The position numbers and the translations under genes are program-made. Source: Porticoccaceae bacterium (GTDB lineage Bacteria; Pseudomonadota; Gammaproteobacteria; Pseudomonadales; Porticoccaceae). Taken from it: a stretch of 50,799 nt of DNA. How positions within the stretch are numbered: the stretch's first letter is position 1; the number at the start of each line of letters is the position of its first letter. The notes beneath the pieces were generated by a model. That model was not told where the DNA came from. It saw only the letters and a program-made list of their open reading frames with translations, and did not search any database. Positions 18,903-43,886 of the stretch are shown one piece after another. The stretch lies in contig JABJEX010000057.1 in assembly GCA_018663035.1 (NCBI GenBank), forward strand, positions 1 to 50,799. Reading direction: 5' to 3'.

Positions 18903-18919
18903 TGTCATAGTTTGTGCCA
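18903..18919. promoter_or_regulatory. Island operator copy 1 (TGTCAT-AGTTT-GTGCCA)
   Basis: A 17-bp imperfect palindrome fitting TGNCAY-N5-RTGNCA. Read on the minus strand it is TGGCAC-AAACT-ATGACA, with the same AATAAT-type flank as the copies at 25167 and 25777. It lies 42 bases before the DUF2855 start. Confidence 0.65.
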
Positions 18920-18961
18920 TTATTCTTAAAAGGGTTACGAACATTGGTTGGAGTCAAAGCA

Positions 18962-20044
18962 ATGACTGAGTACACCGCACTGTGGGTAGATCGGACTGAG
19001 ATTACCAAGACTAGGCAGGTCAGCATGCCCATCGGTCCGGTCGCGGCCGGTCAGATACTAGTGGATATTGATAAGTTCGGTCTTACCGCTAATAACGTCA
19101 GCTATGCGGTGACTGGAGACAGTATTGGTTATTGGCAATTTTATCCGGCCGAGGAGAATTGGGGGATTGTGCCAGTCTGGGGCTGTGGCACGGTGATTGA
19201 GTCCAACTGCGACGAGATACCAGTGGGTGAGCGTCTCTGGGGCTATTTCCCCATGGCCAGCCATGCTGTGCTAACGCCGGGGCGTATTCACAGTGACTAC
19301 TTTATGGATGTGATTGAACATCGCCGAGAACTTCCCCTTATCTATAATCAATTCCGTCGCACTCGTGCAGAGCCAGCGTTTATTCAGGCTATGGAAACCG
19401 AGCGCTGCCTACTTTTTCCGCTGTTTATGACCTCCTACCTTATTTATGACTATTTGATCGACAATGATTTTTTCGGTGCCCAGCAGGTGGTCATTGGTTC
19501 AGTGTCCTCAAAAACCGGTTTTGGGCTGGCACAGATGCTTCGGGGTGACAGCTCCCTGAGTCAGTCAGTCATTGGTGTTACTTCTCAAGCCAATGTCCGG
19601 TTTGTTGAGGGTCTTGGCTGTTGTGACCAGATTGTGGTTTATCAAACTGAGCATGAAATTGATGCCTCTTTGCCTACAGCCTATGTAGATATGTCTGGAG
19701 ACGCTCGGCTGACTATTAGTTTGCACAACCATCTTGGCGACAATATGGTAGAGAGTTGCATGGTGGGGGCGAGTCACTGGCAAGAAGGTGGCAAGGTAGG
19801 TGAGCTGCCGGGCGCGCGGCCAAGGTTCTTTTTTGCGCCAGGACAGATTGAGAAGCGCAATAAAGAATGGGGTCCTGGAGTGGCTATGGTCAGAGCTATG
19901 ACCGCAAGCGCTGAGGTGGCAGCCAAAGTCTCTGCGGATATCGATATCCAATGGGTAGAGGGTGTGGAGAGTTTGGCAGAGCACTGGGCCCAATTGCTGG
20001 ATAACAAAATTTCACCCAGTACAGGGCTTATGGTAAGGCTGTGA
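18962..20044 (+). CDS. DUF2855 family protein
   Basis: 360-residue cytosolic protein resembling the DUF2855 family, distantly like medium-chain dehydrogenase/quinone reductase folds: an N-terminal GroES-like half (VDIDKFGLTANNVSYAVTGDSIGYWQFYP) and a central nucleotide-binding-like half (QQVVIGSVSSKTGFGLAQ). The family function is not established. The start is ATG 18962; an upstream in-frame start at 18914 would run into the operator. The downstream sulfatase starts inside its stop codon (GTGA overlap), indicating tight coupling. Confidence 0.8.
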   Translation: MTEYTALWVDRTEITKTRQVSMPIGPVAAGQILVDIDKFGLTANNVSYAVTGDSIGYWQFYPAEENWGIVPVWGCGTVIESNCDEIPVGERLWGYFPMASHAVLTPGRIHSDYFMDVIEHRRELPLIYNQFRRTRAEPAFIQAMETERCLLFPLFMTSYLIYDYLIDNDFFGAQQVVIGSVSSKTGFGLAQMLRGDSSLSQSVIGVTSQANVRFVEGLGCCDQIVVYQTEHEIDASLPTAYVDMSGDARLTISLHNHLGDNMVESCMVGASHWQEGGKVGELPGARPRFFFAPGQIEKRNKEWGPGVAMVRAMTASAEVAAKVSADIDIQWVEGVESLAEHWAQLLDNKISPSTGLMVRL

Positions 20045-21729
20045 AGCGATTAGTTAGCGCCGTACTGCTAGTTATTATTGCCGGCCTTATCGGATGGCAA
20101 AACCGGGTTGATTTGTTGGTGTTTGCGGCGCCCAAATTGCAAGAATTATTCAGCCCAATTGCCGAGAATAGAGCCATTAACTGGTCCCAGGGGCCACAGA
20201 CAGCTAATCTTGATCCGAGTCTGAGGCCGCCCAATATTGTTCTGATTGTCACTGACGATATGGGTTTTAATGATATTTCGCTGTACAACGGTGGTGCTGG
20301 TGATGGCACATTGCAGACGCCAAGTATTGATGCGCTAGCTGAGCAGGGGGTGACCTTCACTAATGGCTATGCGGCCAATGCTGTCTGCGCTCCTTCTCGT
20401 GCATCCATTATGACCGGGCGCTACTCAACAAGGTTTGGGTTTGAATTTACGCCTTTCTTTAAAACTGGCGCCACTATTTTCGAATGGATGAATGAACTGG
20501 ATCCACGCCCTGTTCCTCTCCTGATAAATGATGAAAATGTGCAGAATATGCGACCTATGCGTGAATTGGGGCTCCCCGCCTCAGAGATCACCATCGCTGA
20601 ATTACTCAAGCAGCGGGGTTATTACACAGCACATATTGGCAAGTGGCACCTCGGCTCTGTGGGTGAGATGGTGGCAGTCAAGCAGGGTTTTGACGATAGT
20701 CTAGAGATGGGCGGAGGCCTGTATTTGCCTGAGGATCATCCGCAGGTGGTCAATGCAAAGATCAGCGGTGATCGTATTGATCGCATGATTTGGGCCACCG
20801 GCCGCTACGCCGCAAGGTTTAACAGTCTGGGTGAGTCTGGAGCGGAGTTTCAGCCCAAGGGTTATCTGACCGATTACTACACAGACGAGGCCATAAAGGT
20901 GATTGAAGCAAATCGTCACCGACCATTCTTTTTATATCTGGCTCATTGGGGTATTCACAACCCTCTGCAAGCTAGCCGGCAAGACTATGACGCTCTGGCG
21001 CACATCAAAGATCACAGATTGCGTGTCTATTCAGCGATGATTCGCGCCGTTGACCGCAGTGTCGCAAAGATTACTCAAAGCCTCGAAGACAATGGTTTGA
21101 GCGAGAATACATTGGTTATTTTTACCAGTGACAATGGTGGCGCCGGATATATAGGCTTGCCCGAGCTAAATAAACCCTTTCGTGGCTGGAAGCTGAATCA
21201 CTTTGAGGGCGGCACTCACGTCCCCTTTATGGCCAAATGGCCTGCACAGATTAACGCGGGCAGTGTTTTGGATGCGCCTATTCATCATAACGATATCTTC
21301 AGCACTGTGGCAGCCGCTGCTGGCCTTAAAGTGCCAAGCGATCGTCAAATCGACGGGGTTAATTTACTGCCCTATATTCGTAACGAGATTGCAACCGAGC
21401 CTCACCAGACATTGTTCTGGCGAGAGGGGCACCAGCAAGCAGTTTTGCATCGGGGTTGGAAATTAATTCGTGCCAACCAGCCCCATCTACCGCAACCAGC
21501 CCCCCGTGCAAAATGGTTGTTTAATCTTGCTGAAGACCCTACAGAGCAGATTAACTTGGTGACACAATACCCAGAGAAGCTAGCGCTTCTGGAGGCTCTA
21601 CTAGAGAGCCACAACGCCGAGCAGATGGAGCCACTATGGCCCAGCGTGTTCGATTCACCGCAGCTAATTGATAAAACAAGCAATGAGCCCATCGAAGAGG
21701 GCGATGAGTTTATTTATTGGCCCAATTAG
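20041..21729 (+). CDS. Sulfatase (formylglycine-dependent, N-terminally anchored or secreted)
   Basis: 562-residue sulfatase of the alkaline-phosphatase superfamily. C116 in VCAPSRASIMTGR is the cysteine converted to formylglycine by the maturation enzyme; D72/D73 in IVTDDMGFND, HIGKWHLG and FTSDNGG complete the metal and sulfate site. A hydrophobic N-terminal helix (about 4-20) indicates export or membrane anchoring. By family it hydrolyses a sulfate ester; the substrate cannot be read. The start is GTG overlapping the DUF2855 stop by 4 bases. No formylglycine-generating enzyme is in the window. An unusual residue block around 145-165 lies between the active-site loop and the GKWHLG motif. 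Confidence 0.9.
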   Translation: MKRLVSAVLLVIIAGLIGWQNRVDLLVFAAPKLQELFSPIAENRAINWSQGPQTANLDPSLRPPNIVLIVTDDMGFNDISLYNGGAGDGTLQTPSIDALAEQGVTFTNGYAANAVCAPSRASIMTGRYSTRFGFEFTPFFKTGATIFEWMNELDPRPVPLLINDENVQNMRPMRELGLPASEITIAELLKQRGYYTAHIGKWHLGSVGEMVAVKQGFDDSLEMGGGLYLPEDHPQVVNAKISGDRIDRMIWATGRYAARFNSLGESGAEFQPKGYLTDYYTDEAIKVIEANRHRPFFLYLAHWGIHNPLQASRQDYDALAHIKDHRLRVYSAMIRAVDRSVAKITQSLEDNGLSENTLVIFTSDNGGAGYIGLPELNKPFRGWKLNHFEGGTHVPFMAKWPAQINAGSVLDAPIHHNDIFSTVAAAAGLKVPSDRQIDGVNLLPYIRNEIATEPHQTLFWREGHQQAVLHRGWKLIRANQPHLPQPAPRAKWLFNLAEDPTEQINLVTQYPEKLALLEALLESHNAEQMEPLWPSVFDSPQLIDKTSNEPIEEGDEFIYWPN

Positions 21730-21785: not shown

Positions 21786-21797
21786 TTTTGGACAGGT

Positions 21798-22562
21798 TTA
21801 GATAGTCAGGCCACCATCGACAACAATGCATTCACCATTGGTATAGCTGCCGGCGTTGGACACGAGATACAGCACAGTCCCAGCCATCTCATCGGGCTCA
21901 GCATGGCGGTGCATAGGAATAGTAGCAATCGCCTGTTTGTAGATTTTTTCGTCGCTAAACAGGGCGCCAGCAAACTGTGTCTTGGTCATTCCGGGCAGCA
22001 GTGCATTGACACGGATTCCCAGCCCGCCGCACTCCTTGGCAAAGGCCTTAGTCATGTTGACCACTGCAGCCTTGGTGATAGAGTAAATTCCCTGCATGGG
22101 GCCAGGCTGCAACGCATTGACCGAGGCGGTATTAACAATGGAGCCGCCACCATTTTCACGCATGATTTTGCCGGCTTCGATTGACATAAAGAAATACCCG
22201 CGAATATTGACATCTACTGTCTTGGTGTAGGCGCCGAGGTCGGTATCCAGAATATGGCCAAAATAGGGGTTGGTGGCCGCATTATTGACCAGAATATCTA
22301 GCTTGCCGTGTACCTGCTTAATATGTGCAAAGCAGTTTTCAATATCGCCCATATTACCCACATGACAGGCCAGAGCTTCGGCACTGCCGCCGGCTGCATT
22401 AATAGCATCGGCAACCGCTTGGCAGCCATCGATCTTGCGGCTAGAAACAATGACATGAGCCCCTTGCTCAGCCAGTAGCTTAGCGATAGATTCACCTATA
22501 CCGCGACTAGCGCCGGTGACAAGGGCCAGTTTGCCGGTAAGATCAAAAAGATTAGTAGCCAT
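21798..22562 (-). CDS. Short-chain dehydrogenase/reductase
   Basis: 254-residue classical SDR. The cofactor motif GASRGIG is at 17-23, NNAA at 93-96, and the catalytic Ser147, Tyr160 and Lys164 (YSITK) are in place; it ends with the typical VVDGGLTI. The Arg after the glycine motif suggests NADP(H), though this is weak evidence. It is the last gene of a three-gene minus-strand operon (acyl-CoA synthetase, crotonase, SDR) with a 14-base gap and a clear AGGAGA ribosome site, so it probably oxidises or reduces a hydroxyacyl or alcohol intermediate in that pathway. Confidence 0.88.
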   Translation of the reverse strand: MATNLFDLTGKLALVTGASRGIGESIAKLLAEQGAHVIVSSRKIDGCQAVADAINAAGGSAEALACHVGNMGDIENCFAHIKQVHGKLDILVNNAATNPYFGHILDTDLGAYTKTVDVNIRGYFFMSIEAGKIMRENGGGSIVNTASVNALQPGPMQGIYSITKAAVVNMTKAFAKECGGLGIRVNALLPGMTKTQFAGALFSDEKIYKQAIATIPMHRHAEPDEMAGTVLYLVSNAGSYTNGECIVVDGGLTI

Positions 22563-22576: not shown

Positions 22577-23263
22577 TTATTGGGTTAATTTATTTAAATG
22601 GTCGGTAATTTCCGGCCTCATTAGATTGCGAATTTTGCAGTAAGTAACTCGATCTTTGGCGGCTAATAGCTGGCTTAAACTCAGCGCCTCCGCCTGAAGC
22701 TGCTCGCTGGGATAAATACCATCGACAATTTGCAGTGCAGCACATTCCTGCCCGGTATAGGCAACACCGGTTAGCATCATATTTTTCAGCGCCTGCTGAT
22801 TGGGCAGCAAGCGTGCAATATCACTTGAGACTGGCGTAAAGGGGATTTGTATATTGACTTCCGGAAAGCAGAAACGCCCCCTGTCAGAGCGCATCAGTCG
22901 GTAGTCAGCAGCACTTGCCAAAATAGCGCCACCCGCATATGCATTGCCATTAATACAGACAACCGTGGGGGCATTTAGCAGAGCAAAACGACAAAGCAGT
23001 ATTTCGAAGCTAGTTAAAAACTCATTGCGGCCAGCCTGATCCTGCTCCGCAAGCCAGTCCAGATTAATACCCGTCGAAAAGGTTTTCTCATGCTCGCAGG
23101 TTAACAGGAGAGCTGTGTTGCCTTGATACTGTTCTACTGTATCAAGCGCGCGCAGGTATTCATGCACAACCGCAGTGGTAAAACGGTTATCACCGTCATT
23201 TGCCGCGTTGGTCAAACGCAATACATGAACAGACTCTGTAAGCTGCAGGTTCATAGTTGTCAT
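22577..23263 (-). CDS. Enoyl-CoA hydratase/isomerase-family protein
   Basis: 228-residue crotonase-fold protein, shorter than typical hydratases (about 260). The first oxyanion-hole segment reads FSTGINLDWL and the second NGNAYAGGAILASAADYRLM, with FPEVNIQIPFTP following. The single acidic residue in FPEVN and the absence of a Glu in the GGAIL stretch resemble delta3-delta2-enoyl-CoA isomerases (ECI type) more than hydratases. It lies between the SDR and acyl-CoA synthetase genes of the same operon. Confidence 0.8.
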   Translation of the reverse strand: MTTMNLQLTESVHVLRLTNAANDGDNRFTTAVVHEYLRALDTVEQYQGNTALLLTCEHEKTFSTGINLDWLAEQDQAGRNEFLTSFEILLCRFALLNAPTVVCINGNAYAGGAILASAADYRLMRSDRGRFCFPEVNIQIPFTPVSSDIARLLPNQQALKNMMLTGVAYTGQECAALQIVDGIYPSEQLQAEALSLSQLLAAKDRVTYCKIRNLMRPEITDHLNKLTQ

Positions 23264-23311: not shown

Positions 23312-25120
23312 TTAATATCCGGCAGTGCCGTTAACAAGCTGCTCATAAAAGGCTCGGTCTAGTAATTCATACTGATCAGCTTTTGGCTGGCGCACATAGA
23401 TAGATTCTTCAATCTGGTCCAGGTGGTAGGCCTGCTGCTTTAATTTACCTTTAAATAGTTTAAATGTCCCTGTGGTGTCCTGTTCCTGTTCAATGCGCAC
23501 AAAGACCGGGCGGGCAAAGACAGGCAATTCTCGGTCGACAAATTCAGTAAATGCCGCTGGGTTAAATTTCTGACCAGGGGACAATGTAATGGCAGCCATA
23601 CCTGCTTTACCTTCTGCTCCGGGGATATCTACGCCATAGACATTGCTTATCTCAACCTGTTCGCAGGCATTGAGAATCTCACCCACCTCATTGGTTGAGA
23701 CATTCTCTGCGCGCCAGCGAAAGGTATCACCGACGCGGTCTACAAATTGGTAGTGGGGCAGTCCCATGGCAAAGCCTACATCGATTTTGCGAATTAAATC
23801 GCCGGTATTAAACCAGCGGTCTCCGGGTTCGCGGAGGTCGGTAAGAATCTTGTCATTGGTCGCATCAGCGCTTTTATAGCCATCAAACTTATAGCGATCA
23901 TCAATCTGCCCCAGCATAAGTCCAGCTTCGCCAGGTTCCACTTCGATAACCTTGCCGTTTTCATCCAGCACGATTTCGTCGTTCTCAATATCGTATTTCA
24001 CCAGCATTACCACTACAGAGCCGGTCCCGATGGTGGAGTCTTTATTGAGAATATTGAGAAAAGATACATTGCCCTCGCTGGAGCCATAAATTTCGGTAAT
24101 TCGTTTTACCCCAAAGCGATTGCGGAACATATCCCACACGTCTGGGCGCAAACCATTGCCTAGCATGGTTTTAAGGGGGTTGTTTTTCTCCTCTGGGCAC
24201 TCGGGTGCCATGGCCAGATAGCGACAGAGTTCGCCAACATAGACAAACAATGTAGTCTGGTACTTTTGTACCTCAGGCCAAAATTGAGTGGCTGAAAAAC
24301 GGCGCCGCAAAAACATGGATGCACCAGAATGCAAGCAGCTGCCAATGCCCAACAAAAAGCCAGTTGCATGGTAGAGCGGCAGACAGATATACATGCGGTC
24401 ACTGGATTTAGCATGAAAGCCGACGGTAGAGTAGGGCTTGGCTGCCGACATTATTTTGCGGTGGTAGACAATCGCCGGCTTGGGCAGTCCAGTGGTACCA
24501 GAAGTAAAGATATAAAGAGCAATTTCGCCAGCAGCGATATCCTCTGTCTCTGGATGATTATCAGTAGGCATATCGGCCAACGTCGCGCTAAAGTCAGTGG
24601 CCCATTCTGGTGCGCCCTGATTGACCTGTTTGTCGGCTACCCACAGATAATCTTTATCCGCTAGCTCAAGCCCCTCTTTAACGCCCATCACTGAGGCGAG
24701 CAATTCCTGCCCAACCAGGCATTTTTTGGAGTTGACCGTGCTTATGCAATGGGCCAAAGGGCGGTCAGTAAGGCCGGTGTTAATTAAACCCGCAGTAGCG
24801 CCAATTTTGGCCAGTGCAAAGATACTGCACAACAGCTCGGTGCGGTTCTCAATTAAGACCGCTACACAGTCGCCCCGAGTAACCCCCTGCTGTTTAAGAC
24901 TGTGAGCAAACTGGTTGGTCAAGCAATTAAACTCAGACCAGTTGAGCTCTTGGCCTTCGCAGACAATGGCTGATTTTTCAGGGTATGTGGCAGCAGTGGT
25001 TTGAAACATTAACCCCAGAGAGGTTTTGGCATCCTCCAGAGGGGGTTTAAAGAATATCAATGTGGGGGCGGCTTGGAAGAAATTCCAAATCACACGGAAA
25101 AACTCGATGATCTTTTTCAT
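23312..25120 (-). CDS. Long/very-long-chain acyl-CoA synthetase (FATP-type)
   Basis: 602-residue AMP-forming acyl-CoA ligase. The P-loop-like TSGTTGLPKP is at 206-215, with EIYGSSEGN and WFNTGDLIR motifs further on and a C-terminal domain with FKLFKGKLKQQAY. An N-terminal hydrophobic stretch (about 8-25) and the VGDTFRWRAENVSTNEVGEIL segment are typical of the FATP/SLC27 and bacterial FadD6 branch that activates long or bulky acids. It heads the minus-strand operon with crotonase and SDR, has an AGAGGGA ribosome site, and starts 46 bases from an operator copy in the divergent promoter region. Confidence 0.9.
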   Translation of the reverse strand: MKKIIEFFRVIWNFFQAAPTLIFFKPPLEDAKTSLGLMFQTTAATYPEKSAIVCEGQELNWSEFNCLTNQFAHSLKQQGVTRGDCVAVLIENRTELLCSIFALAKIGATAGLINTGLTDRPLAHCISTVNSKKCLVGQELLASVMGVKEGLELADKDYLWVADKQVNQGAPEWATDFSATLADMPTDNHPETEDIAAGEIALYIFTSGTTGLPKPAIVYHRKIMSAAKPYSTVGFHAKSSDRMYICLPLYHATGFLLGIGSCLHSGASMFLRRRFSATQFWPEVQKYQTTLFVYVGELCRYLAMAPECPEEKNNPLKTMLGNGLRPDVWDMFRNRFGVKRITEIYGSSEGNVSFLNILNKDSTIGTGSVVVMLVKYDIENDEIVLDENGKVIEVEPGEAGLMLGQIDDRYKFDGYKSADATNDKILTDLREPGDRWFNTGDLIRKIDVGFAMGLPHYQFVDRVGDTFRWRAENVSTNEVGEILNACEQVEISNVYGVDIPGAEGKAGMAAITLSPGQKFNPAAFTEFVDRELPVFARPVFVRIEQEQDTTGTFKLFKGKLKQQAYHLDQIEESIYVRQPKADQYELLDRAFYEQLVNGTAGY

Positions 25121-25166: not shown

Positions 25167-25183
25167 TGGCACTGCTTGTGACA
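25167..25183. promoter_or_regulatory. Island operator copy 2 (TGGCAC-TGCTT-GTGACA)
   Basis: A 17-bp imperfect palindrome fitting TGNCAY-N5-RTGNCA, in AT-rich DNA between the divergent acyl-CoA synthetase (46 bases away) and DUF1330 (200 bases away) genes. The flank ATATTA is shared exactly with the copy at 25777. Confidence 0.65.
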
Positions 25184-25383: not shown

Positions 25384-25698
25384 ATGACAGATATACCAGT
25401 TTATATGGTGGTTAACCTAAAAGTCACAGATGCCGCCGAGTATCGCAAGTACGAGAAAGGGTTCTTTCCGATCCTTAAAAAATACGGTGGCAGCTTTTTA
25501 ACCTATGATGACAACCCGATTAATCTTGAGGGAGAGGCGCCGAGAGAAGGGCGGGTGATACTGTTTAGCTTTCCCTCAGAAGCCGTAGCCAAAGCCTGGT
25601 GGGCCGATGTTGAGTATCAGGAGCTCAGCGAATTCCGCCGTGCAGGCACCCGCATGGAATTTCTAACCATAGTTCATGGCTTGCCGCCCAGAGACTAA
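25384..25698 (+). CDS. DUF1330 family protein
   Basis: 104-residue small protein of the DUF1330 family (ferredoxin-like alpha/beta barrel). The pattern YMVVNLKVTDAAEYRKYEKGFFPILKKYGGSFLTYDD...GRVILFSFPSEAVAKAWW is characteristic. Function is not established; members often sit beside acyl-CoA and xenobiotic genes. The ATG at 25384 is chosen; the longer frame from 25315 adds a basic stretch outside the domain. It is divergent from the acyl-CoA synthetase operon. Confidence 0.82.
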   Translation: MTDIPVYMVVNLKVTDAAEYRKYEKGFFPILKKYGGSFLTYDDNPINLEGEAPREGRVILFSFPSEAVAKAWWADVEYQELSEFRRAGTRMEFLTIVHGLPPRD

Positions 25699-25776: not shown

Positions 25777-25793
25777 TGGCACAGTAAGTGTCA
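25777..25793. promoter_or_regulatory. Island operator copy 3 (TGGCAC-AGTAA-GTGTCA)
   Basis: A 17-bp imperfect palindrome, 56 bases before the start of the next gene. It is flanked by TATTAT-type elements on both sides, so it would overlap a promoter -10. Confidence 0.68.
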
Positions 25794-25849: not shown

Positions 25850-26440
25850 ATGATTTCAGCACTGGGTATCTGGAGCGCCGCTGCAATACTCTATGCCATT
25901 TTTTGGCTATGGTATGTCGGGTTCAGGGGCAAACTATCTGAGGCAGAAGTCGCTGAGTATCTGCAGCGTTTTGAATCCCTGGGATTAGCCCCTGACCGGC
26001 TGGAAAATCTGCATCACTTTCTGTCTAACGACGATGGTCGTGAATGGTTTATGGTCAATCTACTCGAAATGAAGGCACCCAAGCGAGAATCTATACAGCT
26101 ATTGCGCAGCTACACCAAAATCTTTTTGGGCGGCCTGCTTAAACGCGGGGGTCACCCGTTTTTTGTCGCCAATGCCCAGGCTAAAAATATTGAAAGCCTA
26201 CATTCTGAGCAAGCAAACAACTGGGACTCGATTGGGCTTGTTCGCTACCGCAGTCGCCGTGATCTGGCCGAGATGTTACTCGACACCTTTGGCAGTGACC
26301 ATCATGCCAACAAGTTGGCATCGCTGGAAAAGACCTTTGCCTTTCCAGCTACCACCGGCTTGCTATTAGGCTCGCCGCGGGTGCTAGTGCCCATGGGTCT
26401 GGCCCTAATTGCGGCCCTAACCCAGATTGCACTTTTATAA
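25850..26440 (+). CDS. Membrane-anchored protein of unknown function
   Basis: 196 residues, not recognised with certainty. An N-terminal membrane helix (about 3-21) and a hydrophobic C-terminal helix (about 172-195) bracket a soluble part. The middle (about 55-155, REWFMVNLLEMK then GGHPFFVANAQ and NNWDSIGLVRYRSRRDLAEML) has the rhythm of a DUF1330-like ferredoxin fold, echoing the DUF1330 gene just upstream. The ATG at 25850 with a GGGGGA ribosome site is preferred; the frame opens at 25799, which is too close to the operator. It is the first gene of a five-gene beta-oxidation-type operon. Confidence 0.65.
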   Translation: MISALGIWSAAAILYAIFWLWYVGFRGKLSEAEVAEYLQRFESLGLAPDRLENLHHFLSNDDGREWFMVNLLEMKAPKRESIQLLRSYTKIFLGGLLKRGGHPFFVANAQAKNIESLHSEQANNWDSIGLVRYRSRRDLAEMLLDTFGSDHHANKLASLEKTFAFPATTGLLLGSPRVLVPMGLALIAALTQIALL

Positions 26441-26475: not shown

Positions 26476-27585
26476 ATGAGCAACAATGCCTTATTTCAAC
26501 CGTTTCAGCTGGGAAACCTTGAGTTAAAGAACCGTATCGTTATGGCCCCTATGACTAGGAATTTTTCTCCCAATGACAATATACCGGGCGACAATGTGGT
26601 TGATTACTACCGCCGTCGTGCCGAGGGTGGGGTGGGTCTGATTATTACTGAGGGCACCTGCGTGGGTCATGCCGGGGCTAGCGGCTATCCCGGCGTACCT
26701 TATTTCCATGGCGAGGCGCGTCTAGCCGGCTGGAAGAAAGTCGTCGATGCGGTACATGCTGCCGGTGGTAAAATTGCACCGCAGCTTTGGCATGTGGGTG
26801 CGGTTCGCAAATCCGGCACGCTGCCGGAGGGCGATGTGCCGGGTTATGGTCCCTCTGGTATGAATGTACCGGGTAAGGCCAATCGCCATGTAATGACTCA
26901 GCAGGATATTGACGATGTGGTGGCGGCCTTTGCTCAGGCTGCGGCCGACGCCAAAGCCATAGGCTGTGATGCTGTTGAACTGCATGGCGCTCATGGTTAT
27001 CTAATCGACCAGTTTTTCTGGGCCGGTACCAATCAGCGCGATGATCATTATGCGGGGTCTATCGAAAACCGAAATCGTTTCGCTGTGGAAATTATTGAGG
27101 CGGTAAGAACTGCCGTAGGCGCAGATTTTCCGATTATCTTGCGCTGGTCCCAGTGGAAACAACAGGATTACGCGGCCCGTTTGGCAGTTACCCCAGAAGA
27201 GCTCGAACGATTTTTGTTACCTTTGTCAGAGGCCGGCGTCGATATGTTTCACTGCTCTCAGCGACGTTTTTGGGAACCAGAGTTTGAAGGCAGTGACTTA
27301 AATCTTGCGGGCTGGACCCAAAAGATTACGGGTAAGCCAGCAATTACCGTGGGTAGTGTAGGTTTGGATGCAGACTTTACTCCCAAGCCTGGGGAAGCGC
27401 ATTTTAAAGAAGCTGACCCCGCTAGCCTAGATACCTTGCTGGATCGCTTAGAGCAAAAAGAATTTGACCTTGTGGCGGTTGGCCGAGCGCTGATCTCAAA
27501 TCCAAACTGGGTCAATCTGGTTGAGGCAAAGCGCATGGATGATTTAAAACCCTTCCGTAAAGAACATCTGGGCACCTTAGTTTAA
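26476..27585 (+). CDS. Old Yellow Enzyme family NADH:flavin oxidoreductase
   Basis: 369-residue FMN-dependent TIM-barrel enzyme. The substrate-binding histidine motif HGAHGYL has H170 and H173, QLWHVG lies at 103-108, and the C-terminal VAVGRALISNPNWV binds FMN phosphate. It reduces activated C=C bonds such as enones. It follows the membrane protein gene by 35 bases and precedes an SDR gene, so both may act on an alpha,beta-unsaturated intermediate. There is no iron-sulfur extension, so it is not a 2,4-dienoyl-CoA reductase FadH. Confidence 0.88.
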   Translation: MSNNALFQPFQLGNLELKNRIVMAPMTRNFSPNDNIPGDNVVDYYRRRAEGGVGLIITEGTCVGHAGASGYPGVPYFHGEARLAGWKKVVDAVHAAGGKIAPQLWHVGAVRKSGTLPEGDVPGYGPSGMNVPGKANRHVMTQQDIDDVVAAFAQAAADAKAIGCDAVELHGAHGYLIDQFFWAGTNQRDDHYAGSIENRNRFAVEIIEAVRTAVGADFPIILRWSQWKQQDYAARLAVTPEELERFLLPLSEAGVDMFHCSQRRFWEPEFEGSDLNLAGWTQKITGKPAITVGSVGLDADFTPKPGEAHFKEADPASLDTLLDRLEQKEFDLVAVGRALISNPNWVNLVEAKRMDDLKPFRKEHLGTLV

Positions 27586-27626: not shown

Positions 27627-28406
27627 ATGGAGTTAGACAACAAAATTGTGGTTATCACCGGTGCAGGTAGCGGCATTGGTAGGGCATTGGCCCTGCGCTT
27701 TCACGCCGAAGGGGCAAAGCAAATTGTCTGCGCCGATATTAATTTAGAAAACGCTCAGGAAACCGCCGATATGATCGGGGGTGTAGCCATGCTGGCGAAT
27801 GTTGCCAAGGAAGAAGATACGGCGCGCATTATTGAAGAAACAGAGAGCACCATAGGCCCCATCGACCTATTTTGCTGCAATGCTGGCGTGGGCTTTGGCC
27901 AGTTTATCGACTCCCCCAATGCCGAGTGGCAGGCAATCTGGGACATTAACGTTATGTCTCATGTTTATGCCGCGCGCCATCTGGTGCCGCGTATGGTGGC
28001 TCGGGGCGGTGGTTATTTTTTAAATACCTCCTCTGCCGCTGGGCTGCTTAACCAGATTGGTGGTGCCGCCTACGGGGTAACAAAGCATGCCGCTGTTGGC
28101 TTTGGTGAATGGCTGGCTATTCATCATAAACATGAGGGCATTAATGTCTCTATGCTCTGCCCGCAGGCGGTGCGAACAGCTATGACAGCAGTGGACAATG
28201 ACGCGGTTGCCGCGGCCGCGAACAACGGCATGATTGAACCTGAGGAATTAGCAGACTCTGTGATTGAAGGTTTGCGCGAAGAGAGTTTTTTGATTTTGCC
28301 CCATCCGATTGTTAAAGAGTTTATGCAAAACAAAACCAGCAACTACGATCGCTGGATTGGTGGCATGAACAAGCTGATGCGCAAAATTACCGGTATTATC
28401 GAATAA
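27627..28406 (+). CDS. Short-chain dehydrogenase/reductase
   Basis: 259-residue SDR with GAGSGIG at 12-18, CNAG at 84-87 and catalytic Tyr149 and Lys153 (YGVTK) with Ser135/136. Asp37 in VCADINLEN at the end of the second strand suggests NAD(H) preference. The C-terminal extension (FMQNKTSNYDRWIGGMNKLMRKI) differs from the other SDR in the window, so the two are not recent duplicates. It sits in the OYE-SDR-ACAD-crotonase operon. Confidence 0.87.
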   Translation: MELDNKIVVITGAGSGIGRALALRFHAEGAKQIVCADINLENAQETADMIGGVAMLANVAKEEDTARIIEETESTIGPIDLFCCNAGVGFGQFIDSPNAEWQAIWDINVMSHVYAARHLVPRMVARGGGYFLNTSSAAGLLNQIGGAAYGVTKHAAVGFGEWLAIHHKHEGINVSMLCPQAVRTAMTAVDNDAVAAAANNGMIEPEELADSVIEGLREESFLILPHPIVKEFMQNKTSNYDRWIGGMNKLMRKITGIIE

Positions 28407-28432: not shown

Positions 28433-29656
28433 ATGGGTTTTGAACTAACGGCCAGAGCAGCAGAGCTCAATGAGCGCCTAAAGGTGTTTATGGATGAGCA
28501 TATATATCCTCGCGAACATGAGTATGAGGAATTTACCAGTGATCAGAACAACCTCTGGCAGTATCCAGACTGGTATCAGGGCCTAAAAGACGAAGCCAAA
28601 AGGCAGGGTCTGTGGAATCTGTTTTTGCCCGAGGAGTACAAACCCTGGAGCCCCGGCTTAACTAACCTAGAGATAGCGCCACTCTTTGAAACCATGTCCA
28701 GAGCAGCCTGGTCGCAGCAGATCTTTAACTGTAATGCCCCAGATCGCGGCAATATGGAAGTGCTGGCCAAGTACGGTACTCCAGAGCAACAGGAGCAGTG
28801 GTTGTTGCCCCTCCTAGCTGGTGAAATTCGCTCCGCCTATGCCATGACCGAACCAGATGTAGCCTCATCTGATGCCACCAATATGGAGTTAAAGATTGAG
28901 CGCGACGGCGATGAATATGTTTTAAACGGCCGCAAATGGTGGACGACTAATGTGATTGGCTCTGCCTGCAAAATTATGCTGGTAATGGGCAAGTCCAACC
29001 CGGACGCACCGCGTCACCAACAGCACAGTACTATTTTGGTACCCACAGATACTCCTGGGGTAAAAATGTCTCGACCCCTAAAAGTCTTCGGCGAATACCA
29101 TTCACCTGGCGGTGAAGGGGATATGATATTTAGCGATGTGCGGGTGCCAGTTAGCAATTTGATACTAGGTGAAGGCCGTGGCTTTGAAATTGCCCAGGGC
29201 CGCTTAGGACCAGGTCGCTTTCAATACGCCATGATGTTTGTGGGCATGGCCCAACGCAGCCTGGAGCTTATGTGTGAGCGTGCCCAGCAGCGGGTAGCCT
29301 TTGGTGAAACCCTGAGCAAAAAAACCAGCGTGCAACACGAGATTGCCCGCAGCCGCTGCGATATTGAGCAGTGTCGATTGTTGGTATTGGCCGCCGCTGA
29401 AAAAATGGATAAATACGGCATAGATGGTGCCCGTGAAGATATCAGCATGCTCAAAATTGTGGCACCGAAAATGTGTGAAGATGTGTCTAGCCGCGCCATG
29501 CAAATCTTTGGTGGCATGGGCGTGTGCCAAGACACGCCACTGGCCCATATCTGGACAACAAGTAGATTCTGTCGCATTGCCGACGGCCCAGATGAGGTTC
29601 ATATGTCCCAGTTGGCAAAGATGACCATGCGTTCTTTAAACCGACAGTCGAACTAA
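28433..29656 (+). CDS. Acyl-CoA dehydrogenase (ACAD10/11-like)
   Basis: 407-residue FAD-dependent acyl-CoA dehydrogenase. Family segments are AMTEPDVASSDATN (137-150), NGRKWWTT (165-172), and QIFGGMGVCQDTPLAHIW near the C-terminus. The position of the usual catalytic Glu carries Asp (D384 in RIADGPDEVH), a pattern I associate with the ACAD10/11 branch. In animals those proteins join this domain to an aminoglycoside-phosphotransferase-like kinase; a matching kinase is encoded at 47033-48070. The gene is followed by a dienoyl-CoA isomerase gene 15 bases away. Confidence 0.88.
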   Translation: MGFELTARAAELNERLKVFMDEHIYPREHEYEEFTSDQNNLWQYPDWYQGLKDEAKRQGLWNLFLPEEYKPWSPGLTNLEIAPLFETMSRAAWSQQIFNCNAPDRGNMEVLAKYGTPEQQEQWLLPLLAGEIRSAYAMTEPDVASSDATNMELKIERDGDEYVLNGRKWWTTNVIGSACKIMLVMGKSNPDAPRHQQHSTILVPTDTPGVKMSRPLKVFGEYHSPGGEGDMIFSDVRVPVSNLILGEGRGFEIAQGRLGPGRFQYAMMFVGMAQRSLELMCERAQQRVAFGETLSKKTSVQHEIARSRCDIEQCRLLVLAAAEKMDKYGIDGAREDISMLKIVAPKMCEDVSSRAMQIFGGMGVCQDTPLAHIWTTSRFCRIADGPDEVHMSQLAKMTMRSLNRQSN

Positions 29657-29671: not shown

Positions 29672-30499
29672 ATGAGTTTTTCATCCGATGTGTTAAGTAT
29701 AGAGAAGCAGGGCCAGGTGGGGATTATCTGGCTTGATCGTGAGGCAAAATACAATGCGCTGTCCACTGAACTCTGGTCAGCTATTCCCCATGGCCTAGCG
29801 GCACTCTGCGAAGATCCAGAGATCGGCGCGATTGTGCTAGCGGGTCGCGGTAAACATTTCTGCGCCGGTATTGATCTCGCGGAGGATGGCCTTAGCGAGC
29901 ATAAAAAGGCCAAGGCCCGTTCCAAGGCAGAGGCGAATATTCGCCAACTGGGCAACACCCAAAAGTTCCAACAGGCAATTAGCTCTCTAGCCGAATGCGA
30001 GCTACCGGTTATCGCGGTGGTGCAGGGTTTTTGTCTAGGAGCAGGTGTCGATCTGATCACTGCCTGTGATATCCGTATTGCCAGTGCAGACTCGGTATTT
30101 AGTGTGCGGGAAACTCGTCTTGGTCTGGTGGCCGACGTGGGTACCCTGCAGCGTCTACCTAAGATTCTCAATGCCGGTCATGTAGCTGAGCTGGCCTATA
30201 CAGGCAAGGATATTAAAGCTGATCGCGCTGAGAAGATTGGGCTGGTCAATGATGTGTATGAAACTGCGCAAGCCACTATGGCAGCCGGTATGGCTATGGC
30301 TGCAGAGATCGCAGCTAACTCACCCATGGCCGTGCGCGGTACCAAGTTTATTCTGCGCCAGTCAGAGAATCTAACAGATGAACAGAGCCTGATGTTAAAC
30401 GGCATGTACACCATGATGACCAGCTTGGAGTCCAATGACTTGCAAGAGGGAATTATGGCATTTGCTGAACGCAGGCCAGCGAAGTTTACGGGCAGTTAA
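29672..30499 (+). CDS. Delta3,5-delta2,4-dienoyl-CoA isomerase-like crotonase
   Basis: 275-residue crotonase. It carries three acidic residues, D127 (GAGVD), E147 (RETRLGL) and D155 (ADVGTLQRLP), at exactly the spacing (20 and 8) of the catalytic D176/E196/D204 of rat dienoyl-CoA isomerase, and the ADVGTLQRLPK segment is the hallmark of that branch. It would shift double bonds in unsaturated acyl-CoA with odd-positioned bonds. It is the last gene of the operon, followed by a very strong terminator. Confidence 0.88.
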   Translation: MSFSSDVLSIEKQGQVGIIWLDREAKYNALSTELWSAIPHGLAALCEDPEIGAIVLAGRGKHFCAGIDLAEDGLSEHKKAKARSKAEANIRQLGNTQKFQQAISSLAECELPVIAVVQGFCLGAGVDLITACDIRIASADSVFSVRETRLGLVADVGTLQRLPKILNAGHVAELAYTGKDIKADRAEKIGLVNDVYETAQATMAAGMAMAAEIAANSPMAVRGTKFILRQSENLTDEQSLMLNGMYTMMTSLESNDLQEGIMAFAERRPAKFTGS

Positions 30500-33563: not shown

Positions 33564-34163
33564 TCAGGCTCTGGGTATGAGGCTCTCTAGCAGGTCAATT
33601 AGCAGCGCTGCACTGTCCTCTGGACTCAGTGACTGATGGTCGCGCAATCTGTCCCAGTACTCGAAAGACATAATCGCAAAAATAGCCTCTTGACGAGATT
33701 GAGAGAGGCGACTGATTTCCGGCAGAGCGCGTGCTATATCAGAGCGCATTTTGTTTTGATACTTGGCGTAGTTCTGTTTAAGAAAGGCAGATCGCCAGCG
33801 CCGAGTAGCTGTGGATTTCATGATGTTGCTGTTGTTCTCGTACAGCTTCTGAATCTCGTTTACGCCCCATACTATACGCTCGCGAAGTGGCAGCGCAGTG
33901 TCTACAGAGGAGGCCTTACCTATAAAGCCTTCCCGCCAGATTTGATCCCCTGTTGCAAAGATAGCTTCCATGTCCTCAAAGTGGCGAAACACCGAGCGAA
34001 TACCAACCTTGGCATGATCTGCAATTTGCTGAGCCGTGGGCACCAAATTACCCTGATTGATGAGTTGCAGCATGGCCTCGACAATCACCTGACGGCTGCG
34101 GTCGCTGCGCAGGCGGCGGCCATCTACTTTTTCTGAGGTGCTGGTACTATCTGACATAGGCAT
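33564..34163 (-). CDS. TetR-family transcriptional regulator
   Basis: 199-residue repressor. The N-terminal helix-turn-helix (about 43-62, TAQQIADHAKVGIRSVFRHF) is followed by an all-helical ligand-binding part. The C-terminal half is not close to any regulator I can name. It is the only TetR protein in the window and lies 75 bases downstream of the metallo-beta-lactamase-fold gene, whose promoter region contains an island operator at 35354. I infer that it binds the TGNCAY-N5-RTGNCA sites and represses its own operon; this is not proven. ATG 34163 is used; an ATG two codons later is equally possible. Confidence 0.85.
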   Translation of the reverse strand: MPMSDSTSTSEKVDGRRLRSDRSRQVIVEAMLQLINQGNLVPTAQQIADHAKVGIRSVFRHFEDMEAIFATGDQIWREGFIGKASSVDTALPLRERIVWGVNEIQKLYENNSNIMKSTATRRWRSAFLKQNYAKYQNKMRSDIARALPEISRLSQSRQEAIFAIMSFEYWDRLRDHQSLSPEDSAALLIDLLESLIPRA

Positions 34164-34237: not shown

Positions 34238-35308
34238 TTAAAGCCCATTGTTTTTAATCTCGATAGAGCTAGAGTTAGCGGGCAAGGATACTTCGGTGCC
34301 ATCTTGGCCCAGAGTAAATTCGCTAAAATATTCATCAACACCGTCCAACCAGGCCGCCTCGGCACCGGGTTGATCCAGGGGTGGCACTACATGGTAGTAG
34401 AGTAGATGGCCCACGTTGGCGTCGCGAGCAGTCTCTGCGGCCTCTATTGGAGAGGCATGGTAGTCCAACACATCATGAAAAATTTGCGCCATATTTGTGC
34501 TGCCAGCATTACTTGCGCCCTGACTCATGGCTTGCAGCAGGGTAGGTGATAGCGCCTCATGAACAAGCAGATCAATGCCCTCGGCAAAGCGTTCAATATT
34601 GGCGGATTTACTGGTGTCACCGGAGATCAGTGCGCTGCGTCCAGCATAACTGAATCTATAGGCAACAGCGGGAGAGATAGGGAAATGATCAACTGCTAAC
34701 ATTTCAACTGTCAGGCCATCCTGTTGATACAGAGTAATCAGTTCGCCATCGGCGGGAAGCGGGGCGCTAACGGCGACCATGCCGGCACCACTGAGTGGTG
34801 TGACAGCATTGCCATGGTGATCGTTGCGATAGACCTTGTCCTGCCCATAGGCCAGATTAAATCCAGCGACCACATCGGCCACGCCCTCAGGGCCATAGAC
34901 CTTAAGAGGCGTTTCGTGGGAGCCGTTGGCCCAGCGCAAGGTAGCCACCTCGCCCAGACCATCGATATGATCGGAGTGAAAATGGCTGAGAAAAACGCCA
35001 CTGATTGAACCGGGCGCAAAGCCCATGCGGCCAAGATTGCGAATGCCATTACTACCAGTGTCTACCAGAAACAGTTTGCCAGCGGCGACCACCGCAACAC
35101 AGGGCCCTGAGCGACGCACCGAGGGCATTGGCCCACCGGCACCGCATAGAGCCACATGCAGGCCATCGCCCAGATCTTGGATTTTATCGCTCTGCAGATT
35201 TGCTTGCATCCCTTTGGGGACAATGCTTAGAAAAATATCCCCGCGCTTGGTGTAGAGAGCCAATGCGGTGGTGAGCACTAGCAGGCCGACAATATATGAC
35301 TTCTTCAC
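34238..35308 (-). CDS. Metallo-beta-lactamase-fold hydrolase (RNase Z/arylsulfatase-like), exported
   Basis: 356 residues with an N-terminal hydrophobic helix (about 5-20). The metal motif HFHSDHIDG gives H109, H111, D113 and H114; ISGDT and VDHFPISPAVAYRF follow as later strands, as in the RNase Z/AtsA group. The frame opens at 35323 with GTG, but the first codons (GGGAGGT) are clearly a ribosome site, so the second GTG at 35308 is the true start. The gene is divergent from a GST-like gene, with an operator halfway between them (45 bases from each start). The substrate is unknown; an ester or lactone is plausible. Confidence 0.82.
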   Translation of the reverse strand: MKKSYIVGLLVLTTALALYTKRGDIFLSIVPKGMQANLQSDKIQDLGDGLHVALCGAGGPMPSVRRSGPCVAVVAAGKLFLVDTGSNGIRNLGRMGFAPGSISGVFLSHFHSDHIDGLGEVATLRWANGSHETPLKVYGPEGVADVVAGFNLAYGQDKVYRNDHHGNAVTPLSGAGMVAVSAPLPADGELITLYQQDGLTVEMLAVDHFPISPAVAYRFSYAGRSALISGDTSKSANIERFAEGIDLLVHEALSPTLLQAMSQGASNAGSTNMAQIFHDVLDYHASPIEAAETARDANVGHLLYYHVVPPLDQPGAEAAWLDGVDEYFSEFTLGQDGTEVSLPANSSSIEIKNNGL

Positions 35309-35353
35309 TATTTTACCTCCCACAGATCAGATTCTGTTTAGAGGGTGGCATGA

Positions 35354-35370
35354 TGGCATACAGTGTGTCA
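35354..35370. promoter_or_regulatory. Island operator copy 4 (TGGCAT-ACAGT-GTGTCA)
   Basis: A 17-bp imperfect palindrome centred between two divergent start codons, 45 bases from each. Its right flank ATATAT matches that of the copy at 43870. Confidence 0.66.
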
Positions 35371-35415: not shown

Positions 35416-36483
35416 ATGTCCCAACTCTCTGTGCCTCAACCGTCTTCGCCCCAACCTGAACCTATTACCCTGATCGGCGCTCCGCCATCACCTTACACCA
35501 GAAAAATGGTGGCTTTGCTCAGATACAGACATATTGCCTACAGAATTATCTGGGGCTCGCCCGATGCTGTGCTCACACAGATGGGTATTGCCAAACCCAA
35601 GGTGGCGCTGCTGCCAACCTTTATACTGCCCGATGAGTCGGGTGAGATGCAGGCTGTCTGTGACTCGACACCGATTATTCGGCGTTTGGAATCCGAACAT
35701 CAGGGACGCTCGGTAATTCCAGATGACCCAGCTATGGCCTTTATCGACTATTTGTTGGAAGATTTTGCCGACGAATGGTGCACCAAATATATGTTCCATT
35801 ACCGTTGGCATCACGAGGCTGATGCTGACAATGCGGGAACTCTGCTACCTTTGGTTCATCAGGTTAACTTGCCCGCAGAGCAGTTTAATCAGTTCAAGCC
35901 CCATATCACCCAGCGCCAGATAGGCCGATTGCATGTTGTTGGCTCTAATGATGAGACTGCGCCACTTATCGATACCAGCTATGAGCGTCTGCTCGGGGCG
36001 TTGGAGTCCCATCTAGCTCTGCAGCCCTACCTGATGGGTAATCGTCCCGGAGCATCTGATTTTGCACTCTTTGGACAGTTAACCCAGTTAATCGGATTTG
36101 ACCCTACGCCGCGCGCAATCAGCCACAGATTGTCGCCACGCGCCGTGGCCTATACCACGGTGATGGAAGACCAAACTGGTATCAACCCCTGTGCCAATGA
36201 CTGGAACACTACCGAGACTGCGCCAGATAGCTTAAAGGCTATTTTAAAAGAAGTTGGCCATGTCTATGCGCCTGCGCTGTTGGCCAATGCCAGAGCACTG
36301 CAAGCAGGAGAGAGCAGCTGGCAGATAGAAATTGATGGCAGTGTCTGGGCGCAACAGACTTTTAATTATCAGGGCAAGTGCTTGCAGTGGATCAATGCTG
36401 AATATCAGGCACTAACAGGAGCGGAAAGGGCGCGTGTTGACGCGGTGCTTGAGGGCACTGGTTGCGAGCAGGTTATTCTCTAA
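35416..36483 (+). CDS. Glutathione S-transferase-like protein with long C-terminal extension
   Basis: 355 residues. The N-terminal thioredoxin-like domain begins ITLIGAPPSPYTRKMVALLRY (about 17-95), and a helical GST domain includes PYLMGNRPGASDFALFGQLTQL. About 100 extra residues follow, ending YQALTGAERARVDAVLEGTGC. A paralogue with the same layout lies at 42603-43724. The ATG at 35416 with a TTGGAG ribosome site (35404-35409) is chosen over the frame opening at 35296, which would cross the operator. Glutathione transfer or isomerisation is possible; the substrate is unknown. Confidence 0.8.
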   Translation: MSQLSVPQPSSPQPEPITLIGAPPSPYTRKMVALLRYRHIAYRIIWGSPDAVLTQMGIAKPKVALLPTFILPDESGEMQAVCDSTPIIRRLESEHQGRSVIPDDPAMAFIDYLLEDFADEWCTKYMFHYRWHHEADADNAGTLLPLVHQVNLPAEQFNQFKPHITQRQIGRLHVVGSNDETAPLIDTSYERLLGALESHLALQPYLMGNRPGASDFALFGQLTQLIGFDPTPRAISHRLSPRAVAYTTVMEDQTGINPCANDWNTTETAPDSLKAILKEVGHVYAPALLANARALQAGESSWQIEIDGSVWAQQTFNYQGKCLQWINAEYQALTGAERARVDAVLEGTGCEQVIL

Positions 36484-37013: not shown

Positions 37014-37030
37014 TAACAGTGCCTATGCCA
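37014..37030. promoter_or_regulatory. Degenerate candidate island operator (minus strand TGGCAT-AGGCA-CTGTTA)
   Basis: One half-site is perfect; the other has two mismatches. It lies in the divergent promoter region, 39 and 72 bases from the two start codons, the same setting as the good copies. Confidence 0.3.
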
Positions 37031-37102: not shown

Positions 37103-38533
37103 ATGGCTAAGCAATTTAAGGAGCAGGGTGGTATCGCCACTATGGATCCCAGTGCGCTGTTTAGATGGCTTTCGTCGAAGGTGATCGGCAGAATTATCAG
37201 CCCGCAAAGGCTGGCAAAGCGACGACAAAAATTTGAAAAACAACGTCGGGCCAATGGTGAAAAATATCTGGTGGAGTACTTTCATCAGGTGGATGATGGC
37301 TATAGTCATTTGGCTGCGCAGGTGCTTGAACCCCTTAGGCAACGCTATGATATTGAGCTGCGTTGCTATCTTGTCACTGGCCCCTCCGGCGATAATAGGG
37401 TAGAGCCTGAGCTATTGAGCAACCTCTCGCGGTACGATGCGAGCTGTATTGCGCCGCACTATGGGTTGGCGGCCCCCGCCGGGGATCCAGTGACCTCTGG
37501 CAGTTTAAAATCCTCATCAAGCCAGCCTCTGCGGCCAGAGGCCATTGCTCAGGCTCAGGGCGTAATGGCCGCTATTCTTCTGGAGCCATCTCGGGCTGCT
37601 GATGTGGCTAAACTTATCAGCGTTGTGAGTTCCGCCCTGTATTCCGCAGATAGCGCAGCTCTGGCTAGTCTCGCTGATCAGTATGGCTGCGCCTCGGCCG
37701 AGCAACAACAGCAATGTATTGCAGCAGGTAATGACCGACGTACTGCCTTAAAGCATTATTCTGGAGGCATGTTTTACTGTGCCGAAGAGTGGTATTGGGG
37801 TGTCGACCGGCTGCACTATTTAGAGACGCGATTGGCAGAGGCAGGCGTAGATAGGCAGCCCGATCAACCTCTATTAATGCCACGCCTTGCCGTAGAGCCT
37901 GGTATACACCGCGACAATGGCAGCCTGACCTTAGAAATCTACCCTTCGCTGCGCAGCCCCTACACCGCAGTGGTCTTCGAGCAAACACTTAAGCTAGCCG
38001 AAACAACGGGCGTCAAATTAGTGGTGCGGCCAGTCCTGCCCATGGTGATGCGCGGTGTGCCTGCCACGAGAGAAAAGGGCATGTATATTTTTACCGATAC
38101 CGCCCGCGAGGCACGCAGTGCCGGTGTAGCCTTTGGCAATTTTTACGATCCCATAGGCAACCCTGTGCGCAATTGCTACTCGCTCTACCCCTGGGCCTGT
38201 GAACAGGGACTTGGTAACCAGTTAATCGCCAGTTTTTTAAGTTGCGCCTTTGCCCAGGGTATCAATACCAACAATCATCGTGGGCTCAAAAAGGTGGTAG
38301 AGCAGGCCGGTCTTGACTGGTCGGTGGCAAAAACGCTTATTGGTCAGCCTGGTTGGGAAGATATTCTGGAGAATAATCGGCTGGCAATGTACGAGGCAGG
38401 CCTCTGGGGCGTACCTAGTTTTCGCCTGCTCAACCAACAGGGTGAGTCGGTGTTGGCGCTTTGGGGTCAGGACCGGCTTTGGCTGGTGGCCCGGGAAATC
38501 GAGCGACAGCTAACTTTAGATTCGGCGTCTTAA
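37103..38533 (+). CDS. Tandem DsbA/HCCA-isomerase-like thioredoxin-fold protein
   Basis: 476 residues, about twice the length of the family. After a basic N-terminal region (about 18-50) a first divergent DsbA-like domain runs from about 54 to 240 (YLVEYFHQVDDGYSHLAAQVL at its first strand, EEWYWGVDRLHYLE at its end). A second domain (about 275-470) starts LEIYPSLRSPYTAVVFEQTL, with S285 where HCCA isomerases have their serine, and has WGVPSFRLLNQ as the cis-proline loop. Neither domain has CxxC, so this is not a disulfide oxidase. It is the first gene of an operon with an acyl-CoA carboxyltransferase 12 bases later. Confidence 0.75.
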   Translation: MAKQFKEQGGIATMDPSALFRWLSSKVIGRIISPQRLAKRRQKFEKQRRANGEKYLVEYFHQVDDGYSHLAAQVLEPLRQRYDIELRCYLVTGPSGDNRVEPELLSNLSRYDASCIAPHYGLAAPAGDPVTSGSLKSSSSQPLRPEAIAQAQGVMAAILLEPSRAADVAKLISVVSSALYSADSAALASLADQYGCASAEQQQQCIAAGNDRRTALKHYSGGMFYCAEEWYWGVDRLHYLETRLAEAGVDRQPDQPLLMPRLAVEPGIHRDNGSLTLEIYPSLRSPYTAVVFEQTLKLAETTGVKLVVRPVLPMVMRGVPATREKGMYIFTDTAREARSAGVAFGNFYDPIGNPVRNCYSLYPWACEQGLGNQLIASFLSCAFAQGINTNNHRGLKKVVEQAGLDWSVAKTLIGQPGWEDILENNRLAMYEAGLWGVPSFRLLNQQGESVLALWGQDRLWLVAREIERQLTLDSAS

Positions 38534-42578: not shown

Positions 42579-42602
42579 AACCTAATCTACGAGAACAACG
42601 CG

Positions 42603-43724: not shown

Positions 43725-43850
43725 CCTCCAGTGCTGTTTTTGCCATTGCCCCCTGACCTTATTTGGCAACCCCATAGTCATTATTGATTGAGGCATATCC
43801 AATGCCTCTGAGTTACTATAAAACCTTATTGGGGCGCTCGTATTTTTGAG

Positions 43851-43878
43851 TTGCTTCTAGCTTTGTATTTGGCATAAT
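43851..43878 (+). promoter_or_regulatory. Possible promoter overlapping operator copy 5
   Basis: TTGCTT (43851-43856), a 16-base spacer and CATAAT (43873-43878). The -10 lies inside the palindrome at 43870-43886, so binding there would block polymerase. Confidence 0.45.
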
Positions 43879-43886
43879 CCATGCCA
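43870..43886. promoter_or_regulatory. Island operator copy 5 (TGGCAT-AATCC-ATGCCA)
   Basis: The most symmetric copy: a perfect 6-5-6 inverted repeat, extended one pair on each side (43869-43887). It lies 37 bases before the start of the multifunctional beta-oxidation gene. Confidence 0.72.

Follow-up and report, generated by a model that had tools for sequence, protein, structure and literature searches.

A palindrome shared by five promoters of a Porticoccaceae catabolic island, probable operator of a TetR-type regulator

Do palindromes that recur in the promoter regions of a bacterial catabolic island mark one regulon, and which protein would act on them? We examined this in a window of 50,799 nt, one whole contig (JABJEX010000057.1) of a Porticoccaceae genome of 2.02 Mb in 104 contigs. 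A first-pass annotation had pointed to five copies of the 17-bp palindrome TGNCAY-N5-RTGNCA in the island, and proposed a single regulon with the TetR-type protein encoded at 33564-34163 (hereafter window TetR) as candidate regulator. From sequence comparison, we conclude that the palindrome is very probably the operator of this TetR, which would repress a sulfatase/GST/acyl-CoA catabolic regulon. The proposal was supported by promoter conservation, by the joint occurrence of site and TetR in three proteobacterial classes, checked against other spacers, and by the lack of intergenic sites in 30 loci of other TetR proteins. The elements concerned are the following; scores are those of the matrix described in the next section.

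18903..18919, + strand: operator-like palindrome 1, before DUF2855 and sulfatase 1 (23.4 bits)
25167..25183, - strand: operator-like palindrome 2, before the FadD6-like/crotonase/short-chain dehydrogenase (SDR) run (21.8 bits)
25777..25793, + strand: operator-like palindrome 3, before the run of ORF 25850, old yellow enzyme (OYE), SDR, acyl-CoA dehydrogenase (ACAD) and crotonase (30.4 bits, top window score)
35354..35370, unstranded: operator-like palindrome 4, between the divergent metallo-beta-lactamase-fold (MBL, followed by TetR) and GST genes (23.5 bits)
43870..43886, + strand: operator-like palindrome 5, before the FadJ-like/nitronate monooxygenase-like (NMO)/APH-kinase run (24.9 bits)
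33564..34163, - strand: TetR-fold regulator, predicted as the probable binder of the palindromes

The palindrome in the window and in its genome

All five copies reported earlier were exact, and the window held no other match. In 100 dinucleotide shuffles the mean was 0.32 and none reached five; about 0.2 chance matches had been estimated at first. A distance of 37–56 bases between site and start codon had been claimed, and was borne out from the start codons of six genes: 42 bases for DUF2855 (ATG 18962), 46 for FadD6 (ATG 25120, - strand), 56 for the ORF at 25850 (ATG 25850), 37 for FadJ (ATG 43924) and, from the site at 35354, 45 for both GST (ATG 35416) and MBL (GTG 35308, - strand). For GST the gene caller gave a start at 35350, which would put site 35354 inside the gene, and the in-frame start at 35416 was adopted. 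Control of DUF1330 by site 25167 is less sure because its start lies 200 bases away.

The flanks, first described as AT-rich and partly shared, are indeed so, and the palindrome continues into them: among 95 distinct sites from other organisms it extends to about 29 bp, WTATAW-TGNCAY-N5-RTGNCA-WTATAW. A search of the window with one mismatch allowed found 8 sites against 6.98 expected, no excess over chance.

In the whole genome, the strict 17-mer matched 22 times against 4 for the reversed pattern. Intergenic copies made up 5/5 in the window (with the GST start at 35416) and 4/17 in the rest of the genome (Fisher p 0.0048). Since 13 of these 17 fall inside called genes, matches to the bare consensus carry little weight outside the window, and it was rejected as too noisy for genome-wide prediction. 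A matrix was built on 78 distinct sites, each taken from a locus with a TetR less than 55% identical to the window TetR, and was applied to the whole window and to the 17 other strict genome copies. The five window sites scored 21.8–30.4 bits, the next window position 6.7. Among the 17 other copies, one on contig C69 (27.6 bits) precedes an NMO-like gene and one on C95 (26.2 bits) a MaoC/SDR/thiolase run; the remaining fifteen scored -18.1 to 13.2 bits. A motif as frequent inside genes as outside, which the first-pass annotation had named as an argument against a regulon, was hence found for the bare 17-mer and not once the flanks were scored by the matrix. When 2 mismatches or fewer were allowed, the flanked pattern gave 86 matches in the same genome against 73 for its reversed form, and is useless beyond the few best matches, one of which (C88:1273) has one mismatch.

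A weak sixth candidate lies at 37014-37030 of the window (6.7 bits), with a one-mismatch site in 4/7 relatives. It precedes a 476-aa protein (37103-38533) whose C-terminal part is a DSBA-like domain; its first 275 or so residues match nothing in Pfam. On the short contig C68 of the same genome (locus L030), a DUF1330-like protein (by eye) adjoins a haloalkane dehalogenase (NF002938, 385 bits, cut-off 241); this contig also carries an intergenic strict match with a low score of 8.0 bits, not directly before either gene.

Conservation of the sites across Proteobacteria

The nearest named homologs of the window TetR are from SAR92 and Porticoccaceae; that of SAR92 H231 is 72% identical. We compared the orthologous promoters in close SAR92 relatives, a check proposed at the outset, counting genomes with upstream sequence of the gene (G037 was left out for FadD6, its locus having no such sequence). 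The strict site was present before DUF2855 in 6/6, FadJ in 8/8, FadD6 in 8/9 and MBL/GST in 7/8 genomes, and in the two latter cases the remaining genome had one mismatch in place. The promoter of the OYE run was more weakly conserved, being strict in 2/7, with one mismatch in 4/7 and two in 1/7. Half-sites were constant and spacer bases varied. Outside the window, the C69 NMO-like gene had a strict upstream site in 6/6 other genomes; the C95 MaoC/SDR/thiolase run had one in 4/19 relatives fetched and is at best a patchy regulon member. The regulon had at first been confined to the island; this extent needs correction, as the site matches predict that it probably reaches further, including the C69 and C95 units.

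To cover greater distances, 79 named loci with homologs of the window TetR (29–79% identical; Gamma-, Alpha- and Betaproteobacteria; 1.22 Mb, 10.5% intergenic) were scanned, intergenic labels coming from a gene caller made for this analysis with 30 bp overlap allowed in these counts. The 5-base spacer gave 111 matches, 98 of them intergenic, and 61/79 loci had an intergenic site. Spacers of 0–4 and 6–12 gave 5–15 matches each, with 0–4 intergenic and 0–1 upstream of TetR, and the reversed pattern gave 1 match. An intergenic site was present in 8/8 loci at 60–80% TetR identity, 31/42 at 43–53%, 6/9 at 37–43% and 16/20 at 28–37%. These loci are not all independent; they hold 91 distinct 27-mers, 14 of these before TetR. 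The 30 shorter loci (88 kb) that hold other TetR proteins of the genus contained 2 matches, none of them intergenic; with the frequency seen in the 79 loci, about 7 would be expected by arithmetic. Flanked matches numbered 64 in twelve named genomes against 4 for the reversed pattern, one genome (AP024629) having none. In a dyad scan without preset motif, TGGCA-N7-TGCCA was the top 5-mer dyad in the island loci of close relatives; in the Halieaceae set TGACA-N7-TGTCA came first and TGGCA-N7-TGCCA second. In L194, L197–L199, L201 and L210, a site lies between the TetR homolog and a divergent short gene, which is DUF1330 in L197 and of the same length and place in the others, an echo of the DUF1330 gene of the window.

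Could these sites be chance palindromes of AT-rich intergenic DNA? The 17 further genome copies of the bare 17-mer, 13 within genes, would suit such an origin, but it is contradicted by the shuffles, the spacer control, the promoter conservation and the matrix derived from distant loci, and is hardly credible. A second reading, sigma-54 promoters, comes from the site itself, as TGGCAY-N5-RTGC puts GG and GC 12 bases apart. Such promoters carry GG at -24 and GC at -12 and are directional. The genome does encode an RpoN DNA-binding domain (E 6.5e-65), and 18/95 distinct sites show the GG..GC arrangement, but these 18 have it in both directions, as a palindrome must, and both the window and 6/6 relatives have TGTCA, in gene direction, in the DUF2855 site. 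Because the other 77/95 sites lack GG..GC in either direction, this test excludes sigma-54 as a general reading in spite of RpoN, and we give it next to no chance.

The TetR protein and alternative readings

Is the window TetR then the binder? Among the proteins coded in 16858-48070, it is the sole match to a Pfam DNA-binding family, three proteins there matching nothing. It has the all-helical fold of the TetR family, with a three-helix DNA-binding domain and a helical ligand domain. The structure of EthR of Mycobacterium tuberculosis (PDB 5mym) is 11% identical and tied with other TetR-type proteins; no shared function is implied, nor are TetR groups unnamed in the fold listing thereby excluded. 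A PDB sequence search gave weak matches, mostly to the helix-turn-helix part (best E 0.00074), no NCBIfam family matched at E 0.001, and plasmids gave 1 distant match. A helix octapeptide reads FRHFEDME in 17 of 26 genus homologs and FRHFDDMD or FRHFNDMD in 9. FRHFEDME is also invariant in 59/59 distant homologs, which we set aside as evidence because these were partly retrieved through that octapeptide.

A separate, unlinked transcription factor might instead bind the palindrome, the TetR being a bystander of the same pathway. Site density before TetR is indeed no higher than in other intergenic DNA of the 79 loci (about 0.6 against about 0.8 per kb, by arithmetic). On the other side, TetR homologs of Alpha-, Beta- and Gammaproteobacteria, some as little as 29% identical, have 15 matches in the 300 bp ahead of their genes; TetR-family proteins typically have a short palindromic operator close to their own gene or to a divergent neighbour. 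The motif also persists where the TetR homolog stands without any other island homolog of at least 40% identity: these 17 loci gave 11 matches at spacer 5, with 10 intergenic in 10/17 loci, and 0–6 matches with 0–2 intergenic at other spacers.

The same alternative was weighed in 38 genomes of the genus, 26 with a TetR homolog and 12 without, 8 of the 12 being under 90% complete. Flanked-site density was higher in the 9 genomes with a TetR at least 61% identical than in the remaining 29 (p=0.00018). Genomes in which no TetR was found still have flanked matches above the reversed control, as an unlinked factor would predict; yet two of them, G004 and G013, have all 5 of their flanked matches inside genes. 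Of 20 flanked sites of the genus viewed in context 12 were intergenic: none of these five, 8/8 chosen from G005, G006, G012, G019, G023 and G032, and 4/7 further sites of G018, which adjoin a TonB receptor, a hydrolase, an acyl-CoA dehydrogenase and an unknown gene. Taken together, we consider an unlinked factor unlikely.

Besides the poor specificity of the bare 17-mer and the site density before TetR, several observations speak against the TetR as binder. The TetR_N domain of Pfam scored 23.4 bits against the window TetR, 0.6 short of the cut-off of 24 (E 5.1e-05). Directly before the window TetR there is no strict site, the nearby one preceding MBL, the gene ahead. No strict intergenic site was found in 18/79 TetR loci, 17 of these 18 having FRHFEDME and several being short, and the palindrome dyad was not first in two smaller dyad-scan sets. 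In the genus, any TetR homolog (26) against none (12) gave 2.25 and 1.83 flanked sites per Mb, not a significant difference (p=0.24). G005 (84% complete, no TetR found) has 2/2 flanked sites intergenic; G029 and G011, equally with none found, carry operator-bearing orthologs; in TetR-bearing G001, G015 and G022 flanked sites are not in excess (1, 2 and 2 against 0, 3 and 2 reversed). Loci L147–L149 lack a strict site; in two of these genomes (L303, L304) a version with one mismatch stands ahead of TetR (by eye).

A departure from the common arrangement was seen in a SAR92 branch (L290, L291, L293–L295, L297–L300) whose TetR is 36–40% identical and carries the helix FRHFDDMD. Here the MBL/GST operator has the form TGNCAY-N5-CTGNCA; the promoter reads TGACATACATACTGCCA in 4/6 genomes and has a CTGTCA variant in the other two (by eye). 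FadJ has no site and stands behind GST and DsbA2 in 6/6 genomes fetched, and 3/6 keep a strict site, close to either a crotonase gene or a small gene of unknown kind. Possibly this is a rewiring and not a loss, with regulator, operator and operon changing together.

With the TetR as the binder, a dimer would bind the two TGNCAY half-sites and block the promoters there. As the TetR gene stands directly behind the operator-bearing MBL gene, with which it possibly shares a transcript, the protein would also repress itself. A compound of the pathway (an acyl-CoA, a glutathione conjugate or the substrate) would release it, and the sulfatase, GST, OYE/SDR/ACAD, acyl-CoA synthetase and beta-oxidation genes would come on together with the two units on other contigs. 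A TetR acting as activator, or as both, seems rather improbable, although some TetR-type proteins do both, such as LuxR of Vibrio harveyi in excerpts of PMC2628434. Promoter-like pairs overlap the palindrome in 69/115 oriented cases; with the flanks shuffled, the mean is 35.3. This overlap does not tell the sign and is confounded by the AT-rich flanks of the site itself. Most studied TetR-type regulators are repressors (excerpts of PMC3511530), and a protein bound 37–56 bases before start codons would be expected to block the polymerase.

Content and meaning of the predicted regulon

Gene identities around the five palindromes were confirmed by Pfam and NCBIfam:

18962..20044, + strand: DUF2855 protein
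20041..21729, + strand: sulfatase 1
21798..22562, - strand: short-chain dehydrogenase
22577..23263, - strand: crotonase-family protein
23312..25120, - strand: FadD6-like acyl-CoA synthetase (NF006134, 698 bits, cut-off 625)
25384..25698, + strand: DUF1330 protein, divergent from FadD6
25850..26440, + strand: 196-aa protein, first gene of the OYE run, no Pfam match
26476..27585, + strand: old-yellow-enzyme-family oxidoreductase
27627..28406, + strand: short-chain dehydrogenase of the OYE run
28433..29656, + strand: acyl-CoA dehydrogenase
29672..30499, + strand: crotonase-family enoyl-CoA hydratase/isomerase
34238..35308, - strand: metallo-beta-lactamase-fold hydrolase (MBL), GTG start, ending 74 bases ahead of TetR on the same strand
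35416..36483, + strand: GST-family protein
43924..45996, + strand: FadJ-like bifunctional hydratase/3-hydroxyacyl-CoA dehydrogenase
46022..46990, + strand: nitronate-monooxygenase/FabK-like protein
47033..48070, + strand: APH-family kinase

The first 11.4 kb of the window (10/15 called genes scanned), with ruvCAB, tol-pal-type and queC genes, lies outside the island. There too, next to the tol-pal/queC-type housekeeping genes, lies an ECF sigma factor with a FecR-type protein behind it (9783-11409).

Genes beside the sites in the named loci were labelled by best BLAST hits at E 1e-10, some below 35% identity: GST 19, MBL 17, TetR 15, ORF25850-like 11, sulfatase 1 10, FadJ 8, APH 6, and 54 without window homolog. 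In 45 of these 54, the scan found Abhydrolase_1 (10), DJ-1/PfpI (7), DUF1330 (7), GST_C (7) and TonB receptor (4). Four site-adjacent hydrolases (L163 17871, L188 218, L307 2561, L310 2515) passed the NCBIfam haloalkane dehalogenase cut-off; their hosts are two genomes of the window genus, a gammaproteobacterial metagenome-assembled genome (MAG) and a Rhodobiaceae MAG. An APH kinase together with an acyl-CoA dehydrogenase recalls 4-hydroxy-acid catabolism by ACAD10/11, in excerpts of PMC12440821 and PMC11342911. Sulfated, perhaps halogenated or hydroxylated lipids would fit the enzyme list as substrate. A bolder idea, to which we attach only a slight probability, is a new TetR-operator pair of Gamma-, Alpha- and Betaproteobacteria controlling, by one switch, a pathway for algal lipids with sulfate esters and halogens (chlorosulfolipid-like) through sulfatases, haloalkane-dehalogenase-family hydrolases, GSTs, acyl-CoA synthetase and beta-oxidation.

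Regulators that control catabolic genes from palindromic operators are a known kind; the window TetR was compared with the fatty-acid TetR groups PsrA, FadP and FabR through the NCBIfam families, none of which it matched at E 0.001. Among known regulators, PsrA is of the TetR type, CifR is a TetR-type repressor of the genes for an alpha/beta hydrolase and an OYE-family protein, and the KstR/KstR2 operator differs from the window palindrome. Excerpts of PMC5343134 give 33 groups of regulators of several families, and cite Kazakov et al. 2009 for PsrA and FadP, the latter listed as TetR, in proteobacterial fatty-acid catabolism. Like these two, the window TetR would govern acyl-CoA genes in several operons; unlike them, it matches no NCBIfam family and has sulfatases, GSTs, MBL, OYE and dehalogenase-family genes in its predicted regulon, a separation made by gene sets and not by motifs. 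KstR and KstR2 are TetR-type repressors over the large cholesterol catabolic gene set of mycobacteria (excerpts of PMC3068626), alike in their manner of working but from a different phylum, and no steroid-specific NCBIfam family reached its cut-off among the window proteins scanned. CifR of Pseudomonas aeruginosa, named in excerpts of PMC8244358, is likened by gene set and not by operator, and the regulon predicted here is much larger. Among the matches listed in the open-access literature, we found no description of this regulator or motif.

SAR92 and Halieaceae are common along coasts; to our knowledge, their use of algal matter apart from polysaccharides has been poorly mapped. With a matrix able to isolate the sites, otherwise scattered genes (sulfatase, GST, MBL, acyl-CoA) become one testable pathway, whose missing members may be sought in other genomes, for example in the apparent isolates SAR92 H231 and H921, HTCC2207, Pseudohalioglobus sediminis and Seongchinamella unica. 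The compound that releases the repressor would point to the substrate of the pathway.

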